Shown one piece after another: positions 1,374 to 3,354 of a stretch of DNA of 64,000 bases (its first letter is position 1; every line of letters begins with the position of its first letter). Below the pieces are notes generated by a model that searched no databases, was not told the origin of the DNA, and saw only the letters and a program-made list of their open reading frames with translations. Position numbers and translations under genes: made by a program. Location: the NCBI RefSeq assembly GCF_000744775.1, contig NZ_JQMP01000003.1:1364001-1428000 (forward strand). The letters are read 5' to 3'. The stretch comes from Thermorudis peleae (lineage in GTDB: Bacteria; Chloroflexota; Chloroflexia; Thermomicrobiales; Thermomicrobiaceae).

Positions 1374-3245
1374 TCAGCGCCGGAGGGCATAAACCCGCCC
1401 ATCGAATGCCCCGAAGATGACGGCGTGGGGAGCAATTGCTGGCCGACTCACGATTGGCGCATTGACCTCGTACGTCCAGCGAATGCTTCCATCGGCAGTA
1501 AATGCAACGAACCGACCATCAACGGTACCAACGTAGCCGAGGACGTCGTCCGCATTTGGCGCTCCGGTGATTTGTGATCCAAGCTTAGCCTGCCAGAGGA
1601 AAGTGCCATCTCCAATATGGCCGGCCCAGAGCGTACCATCGCTCACGCCTACGATAACCGTCTCGCCCCAGACCAAAGGCGTCGCGACAATCGGTGGGCC
1701 AAGCGTAATCTGCCAATGGACTGCACCAGTCTCCAAGACGATTGCCCACAGTTTGCCACCAAGTGTGGCGACCAGCACAAGGTCCGCAGCAAGGGTTGGA
1801 CTCGCCAGAATTGGTGCATCAAGTTGACAACGCCAGCATTCCTCACCACTTGTCAGTGACCAGGCATAGACCGTGCGATCTTCACTCGCCGCAAGAACGC
1901 GCGATTGTGCAAGCAGGGGGCTGGCGCGGATTGGCCCGCGCGTATGCCGTCGCCAGAGCAATGTCCCCGTCAGCGCATCGAGGGCGTAACACATGCCGTC
2001 ATCGCCACCAATAATGACGACGCCCGTATCCGCAGCGAGCGCTGGTGACGAACGGATCGGCAGCGGCGTCAAGTAGCGCCAGCGCAAGGCTCCGGTCTGG
2101 CAGTCAAGCGCATACACGTTGCCGTCTTCTGCTCCGACAATGACTGTGTCATGACTGATGACCGGGCGCGAGACGATTCCCCGGCCAGCGCGGTAGCGCC
2201 AGAGCACGTGGCCACTCTCAAGCGCGATGGCATAGAGACAGCGATCGTATGAGCCGATGAAAACCGTGTCCTGGGCAATACGGGCACTGCCGCGGACTTC
2301 ATCCCCGGTCGCCACTGTCCAGAGCACCCGTGTGTCCGGTTGCTCCTCTTCACATACGGAAGGCTGCATGTCTTGGGAGTGAGAAGCCTTAATAGGTGCT
2401 GATGGAGTGACTGCTGGCGTGCGGCATGCGCGGATCGCGTCGGCCATTGCTGCGGCTGAGGGGAAACGCTCTTCTGGGCGATAGGCCAACGCGCGGAGAA
2501 TAACCGCCTCGAACTGTTCACTCAGGTTGGGGTTGATTTGCCGCGGTGGCCGGTACACCAGCGAAAACGGTGGCTCGTCGCGTGGATCGATCCGCGTCGC
2601 CAAATGATAGAGAGTTGCCCCCAGGGCATAGAGGTCGGCACGCGGATCGACGATACCACGGTATTGCTCCGGTGGAGCATAGCCTTCGGTGCCGATCATC
2701 GTGCCGCGATGCTGCGGCTGGAAGATACGTGCAATGCCAAAGTCGATGAGACAGAGGGAGCCATCTGGCCGGCGCATGATGTTGGAGGGCTTTAAGTCGC
2801 GGAAGATGATGGGTTCCGGCTTCTGGTTATGCAAGTATGATAAGACATCCAACAGCTGAAGCGCCCAGTCGATCAGCTGCGCTTCGGAGGGCAGTCCGGG
2901 CAGGCGAGCAACATAGTGCTCCAAATTTTCTCCCTCGACGTATTCTAGGACGAGATAGGACACGTCGTCGATCGTGAAAAAGTCGAAGACCTGGGGGATA
3001 GCAGGGTGACGCAGTGTAGCAAGCAACGCCGCTTCACGTTCAAAGGCAGCGCGTTGGAGTGCTCGTGTCCGGGGATGGGCATTATGGGAGACAAGCGCTT
3101 TAATAGCACATCGTCGCTCAACGTGAGGAAAGTGGAGGTCGCGTGCCAAATAGACCGTGCTCATTCCTCCTTGACCGATCGGCTGGAGCAGTTCGTAGCG
3201 TCCAGCCAGAATAGTGCCGTGTGGATATTCCTGATGCTCGCCCAC
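1374..3245 (-). CDS. Ser/Thr protein kinase fused to a PQQ-like beta-propeller
   Basis: Residues about 15-285 form a Hanks-type kinase: glycine loop GQGGMSTVY, a lysine in CAIKAL, catalytic RDLKPSN (preceded by F rather than H), and intact DFG. Residues about 305-623 contain eight ~40-residue repeats with the pattern (V/I)LW...G..V..SP......V.VG..DG.VYAL...TG, typical of PQQ/PKN-type eight-bladed propellers. No membrane segment separates the domains, so the protein is probably cytoplasmic, unlike many bacterial sensor kinases. I place the start at the GTG at 3245, after GGGGGA, because the longer frame to 3332 would run through the probable promoter at 3284-3316. Divergent from lepB. Ligand and targets are unknown. 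Confidence 0.9.
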   Translation of the reverse strand: MGEHQEYPHGTILAGRYELLQPIGQGGMSTVYLARDLHFPHVERRCAIKALVSHNAHPRTRALQRAAFEREAALLATLRHPAIPQVFDFFTIDDVSYLVLEYVEGENLEHYVARLPGLPSEAQLIDWALQLLDVLSYLHNQKPEPIIFRDLKPSNIMRRPDGSLCLIDFGIARIFQPQHRGTMIGTEGYAPPEQYRGIVDPRADLYALGATLYHLATRIDPRDEPPFSLVYRPPRQINPNLSEQFEAVILRALAYRPEERFPSAAAMADAIRACRTPAVTPSAPIKASHSQDMQPSVCEEEQPDTRVLWTVATGDEVRGSARIAQDTVFIGSYDRCLYAIALESGHVLWRYRAGRGIVSRPVISHDTVIVGAEDGNVYALDCQTGALRWRYLTPLPIRSSPALAADTGVVIIGGDDGMCYALDALTGTLLWRRHTRGPIRASPLLAQSRVLAASEDRTVYAWSLTSGEECWRCQLDAPILASPTLAADLVLVATLGGKLWAIVLETGAVHWQITLGPPIVATPLVWGETVIVGVSDGTLWAGHIGDGTFLWQAKLGSQITGAPNADDVLGYVGTVDGRFVAFTADGSIRWTYEVNAPIVSRPAIAPHAVIFGAFDGRVYALRR

Positions 3246-3283
3246 AGTTCCCCCGTTTGCTTTGTTCACGCAGTCTGCCCGTG

Positions 3284-3316
3284 GCCGATTATAGATGTCC
3301 CGGGGGTATAATCGGC
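3284..3316. promoter_or_regulatory. Symmetric divergent promoter/operator (kinase and lepB)
   Basis: A perfect 10-base inverted repeat (GCCGATTATA / TATAATCGGC) with a 13-base spacer. Each arm holds a consensus TATAAT -10 box: 3307-3312 on the plus strand for lepB and 3293-3288 on the minus strand for the kinase. Predicted transcription starts (about 3319 and 3281) leave leaders of about 36 bases to GTG starts at 3355 and 3245. At 17-base spacing both -35 regions read GCCGAT, which is non-consensus and overlaps the opposing -10. The repeat could also be an operator for a dimeric regulator. Confidence 0.6.
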
Positions 3317-3354
3317 AGCGGGGAGCGTTCATACAGGGTTCGGAGACGGAACGC

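Follow-up and report, generated by a model that had tools for sequence, protein, structure and literature searches.

Back-to-back TATAAT boxes in a mirror-image repeat between a protein kinase gene and lepB of Thermorudis peleae

Between a protein kinase gene and lepB, the genome of Thermorudis peleae carries two TATAAT boxes that lie back to back within a short inverted repeat. Judged from the sequence and from comparison with relatives, the boxes probably belong to two separate sigma-A type core promoters that were packed together by intergenic shrinkage in this lineage. One core promoter would serve lepB and the other the kinase gene, each driven mainly by its consensus -10 box, and both would predate this genus. 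When the intergenic region shrank here, the -10 boxes would have come to lie 13 bp apart and back to back, and because the start-proximal bases (CGG/CGGC) would have been alike beforehand, the outcome would be a mirror image. Polymerase at one promoter should block the other, with weak mutual exclusion as a likely by-product.

Sequence and geometry of the repeat

At positions 3284–3316 of the window (the whole stretch of 64,000 nucleotides analysed), the DNA reads GCCGATTATA-GATGTCCCGGGGG-TATAATCGGC and sits between the minus-strand kinase gene and the plus-strand lepB (Table 1). Consistent with the preliminary description, the inverted repeat is perfect (10/10 bases paired across a 13-base spacer) and both TATAAT boxes lie inside its arms; it also extends imperfectly to 19-base arms. 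The same description had called the two promoters sequence-identical, which is true of the ten arm bases and of six of the next nine bases on the transcribed side, but the bases preceding each -10 box differ (GGGGG for lepB versus ACATC for the kinase gene).

Table 1. Coordinates of the repeat and of the flanking genes in the window.
Feature	Position	Strand	Detail	Evidence
Left arm GCCGATTATA, read kinase-facing as TATAATCGGC	3284–3293	-	-10 box at 3288–3293	Sequence; similar kinase-facing box in L005
Spacer GATGTCCCGGGGG, 13 bases	3294–3306	.	Asymmetric about the repeat centre	Sequence
Right arm TATAATCGGC	3307–3316	+	lepB -10 box (3307–3312), then CGGC	Family conservation
Imperfect inverted-repeat extension, 19-base arms	3275–3325	.	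Arms 3275–3293 and 3307–3325; 16/19 paired	Extension p about 0.02
Ser/Thr protein kinase with PQQ/BamB-type beta-propeller, 623 aa	1374–3245	-	GTG start at 3245	Pkinase 4e-37, Beta-prop_ACSF4 2e-68, PQQ_2 3e-48
lepB, type I signal peptidase, 232 aa	3355–4053	+	GTG start	Peptidase_S26 6e-48

How far does this arrangement exceed chance? Perfect 10-base arms by themselves are not unusual for this window, with 18 frames reported from 9 distinct places against a Markov model mean of 2.2, yet none of 40 simulated windows gave a 10-base inverted repeat with TATAAT in an arm. Exact TATAAT occurs only twice in the window, both times inside these arms, and genome-wide it is strongly under-represented, with 73 copies in 2.93 Mb, both strands counted, versus roughly 470 estimated from base composition. 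Because no simulated repeat holds a TATAAT and the hexamer is so rare, two promoter-like boxes are clearly present. The added symmetry is modest and slightly above chance: given back-to-back TATAATs, (i) the next four bases are identical (4/4, p about 0.008); and (ii) the match further outward is 6/9 bases (p about 0.02). In the genome-wide promoter statistics, which consist of pattern searches and the 73 TATAAT contexts, 15 of the 73 hexamers have CG directly after them, about double what base composition predicts, and CG after the -10 is thus partly a general preference.

With each transcription start placed seven bases beyond its -10 box, the predicted +1 positions are 3281 (minus strand) and 3319 (plus strand), about 38 bp apart. 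The claim of equal leaders, about 36 bases each, to GTG 3245 and GTG 3355 holds with these inferred positions. Both GTG codons match the N-termini of relatives to within a few codons, the kinase product having its protein kinase domain first, followed by the PQQ/BamB-type beta-propeller. Longer ATG frames (kinase ATG 3332, lepB ATG 3295) were dropped because their start codons would precede the predicted transcription starts and find no support in relatives.

Neither promoter has a recognisable -35 box. Both strands carry GCCGAT where a -35 hexamer would stand at 17-bp spacing, a match to TTGACA at 0/6 positions, and the best match over spacings of 15–19 is 3/6, at spacing 19. A sigma-70 scan across the region called no promoter, and the family alignment upstream of the lepB -10 box contains no strongly conserved column. 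Each -35 had been said to overlap the other promoter's -10: the position does overlap the opposite -10 box, but the sequence at spacing 17 bears no resemblance to a -35. Both look like -10-driven promoters, a judgement made from their sequence. Promoters without a -35 exist.

The two boxes across Thermomicrobiaceae

Apart from L010, every family locus where lepB matches in full has the kinase gene next to it in divergent orientation. TATAATC lies upstream of lepB in all 16 aligned family members, followed by CGGC after the TATAAT in 11 of them; beyond these 16, it also precedes lepB in L021 and L022, slightly further upstream. In the second family of the order, the lepB box is TATACT. On the other side, 7 of the family's 17 intergenic regions, from three genera, contain a kinase-facing TATAAT, against 0.18 expected from shuffles, a count that ignores kinship and so overstates the number of events, related genomes not being independent. 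The invariance of the lepB TATAATC, together with the excess of the kinase-facing TATAAT over expectation, makes it very probable that both boxes are genuine promoter elements.

The distance between the boxes is not conserved. The box-to-box gap is 13 bp in Thermorudis peleae, 70 bp in three genomes of g4 and 84, 93 and 96 bp in three genomes of g3. Despite the 96 bp gap, the kinase box of L005 (g3), CTTCTATAATCGG, is almost that of the window, CATCTATAATCGG. From the likely kinase start to the lepB -10 box we found 61 bp in Thermorudis peleae, about 213–227 bp in g3, 161–176 bp in g4 and, shortest of all, 40–48 bp in Thermomicrobium-type loci (g6). Since these distances differ among genera, intergenic length varies freely. 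We infer shrinkage in this lineage rather than expansion elsewhere.

The symmetry past the -10 boxes (4/4, then 6/9) speaks against simple packing and could reflect an inverted duplication or an operator. In the first case, the kinase-side box would have arisen in this lineage as an inverted copy of the lepB promoter, as the match of the 19-base arms, transcribed sides included, might suggest. However, g3 already has a kinase-facing TCTATAATCGG, with near-identical upstream bases, at another distance; no new origin is therefore needed, and we regard such a duplication as highly improbable.

Thermomicrobium-type loci (L006–L009, L011) have no kinase-facing TATAAT in the intergenic region. Our guess is that the lepB -10 box, read in reverse (GATTAT, 4/6), may also serve their kinase gene; in that case the box would belong to the bidirectional promoters with a shared -10. 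A literature search found no paper on Thermomicrobium start sites.

Is the repeat an operator or a conserved coupling element?

Poor conservation of the repeat among relatives had been named beforehand as a result that would refute the idea that it couples kinase and signal peptidase expression, and this is the result obtained: the mirror repeat is in no relative, the boxes being 70 or 84–96 bp apart in other genera. Allowing up to 3 mismatches, the mirror with its 13-base spacer has no second copy in its own genome and none in 20 relatives, and a looser search for GATTATA-N(3–33)-TATAATC in 61 genomes gave only two unrelated sites, one with a lexA-like and one with an acetyltransferase-like neighbour; the genus is represented in the comparison set by this one species. 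Its absence from relatives argues that coupling through the repeat would not be ancestral, and such coupling is not supported by conservation.

A divergent TATAATC pair surrounds GCGAACAGATGTTCGTG beside a lexA-like gene (L228; G012:C500:2647–2688), a layout that suggests an SOS box placed between two promoters that diverge.

Alternatively, the palindrome could be the operator of a dimeric regulator overlapping both promoters. The imperfect 19-base arms exceed the symmetry that two -10 boxes require, and the same design is clear elsewhere in the genome, with 14-base arms, two TATAATs and a MarR-type gene. Further copies, or symmetry kept in relatives, would mark an operator, but the repeat is a single copy and absent from relatives. 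Moreover, neither flanking gene encodes a DNA-binding regulator, and in every relative the lepB arm is kept while its partner arm is not, as suits a promoter rather than half of an operator. An operator thus appears quite unlikely.

At the MarR-type locus (L188:1528–1556; C3 about 1185827–1185855), the palindrome TCAATTATATCGTA-T-TACGATATAATTGA is perfect and covers two divergent TATAATs with 11 bp between them; it looks like the autoregulatory operator of the adjoining MarR-family-like gene. Like the kinase/lepB repeat it has a TATAAT in both arms; unlike L188, the kinase/lepB repeat has no such neighbour.

Two further candidates were rejected. TATAATCGGC occurs three times in its own genome, and as a regulon motif it fails at the third copy (C3:1089836), which is enclosed by longer open frames on both strands and is not followed by any clear gene start. 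In relatives TATAATCGGC is enriched versus a reversed control, many sites being coding and others preceding unrelated genes. As for a terminator, there is no terminator-like site at the repeat and the flanking genes diverge.

Possible competition between the two predicted promoters

Could RNA polymerase itself act as a switch? With predicted starts at 3281 and 3319 two polymerases would collide, and on this geometry mutual exclusion is likely if both promoters are used. The closest known system is Pr/Pc of Bacillus subtilis plasmid pLS20, in which two divergent promoters share their -10 and -35 positions and polymerase itself is the switch (PMC4207663). In both loci divergent -10 boxes lie near enough for the footprints to overlap. 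In contrast, the pLS20 pair has been mapped, differs in strength and is controlled by a regulator with looping (PMC4207663), whereas the kinase/lepB locus has no -35 consensus and no adjoining regulator, and its starts are predicted from sequence. The absent -35 boxes therefore weaken the fit to the Pr/Pc layout and leave the promoter call itself unaffected.

Bidirectional promoters, as described by Warman et al., have one shared symmetric -10 with starts about 10, 18 or 23 bp apart (PMC12825309). They resemble the kinase/lepB locus in their divergent mRNAs and pseudo-symmetric sequence, and opposing polymerases clash there (PMC12825309). However, the kinase/lepB locus falls outside the shared -10 class, having two full TATAATs separated by 13 bp and predicted starts about 38 bp from one another, and separate divergent promoters are not classed as bidirectional by these authors (PMC12825309). 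At five bidirectional promoters of E. coli there was little competition at basal activity, and competition appeared only with one direction strongly activated (PMC12825309). The importance of exclusion thus depends on occupancy.

Selection could have kept the mirror for the coupling of kinase and lepB expression that exclusive binding would bring. The polymerase footprints would overlap almost wholly given the predicted starts, there is a mapped precedent in pLS20, where polymerase is unable to occupy both divergent promoters (PMC4207663), and both boxes are consensus in a genome where TATAAT is rare. Against this stand the absence of the mirror from every relative, the 70–96 bp between the two boxes in the other genera that have both, the lack of -35 boxes, and the E. 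coli precedent, in which basal activity is too low for competition (PMC12825309). Nor is any reason known why this kinase should be set against a signal peptidase with a housekeeping role. We consider a polymerase switch under selection unlikely, and its most specific form, a regulator-free mirror pair of -10-only promoters that makes polymerase a kinase/signal peptidase toggle and was fixed by selection here, would seem very unlikely.

The locus thus looks like a mostly ordinary case of promoters packed into a short intergenic space, within a comparative series that is mildly interesting. If exclusion does take place, the locus could serve as a modest natural experiment on the packing limit for two consensus -10 boxes, and the series of gaps across the family (13, 70, 84–96 bp, or no kinase box) could show when divergent promoters interfere.
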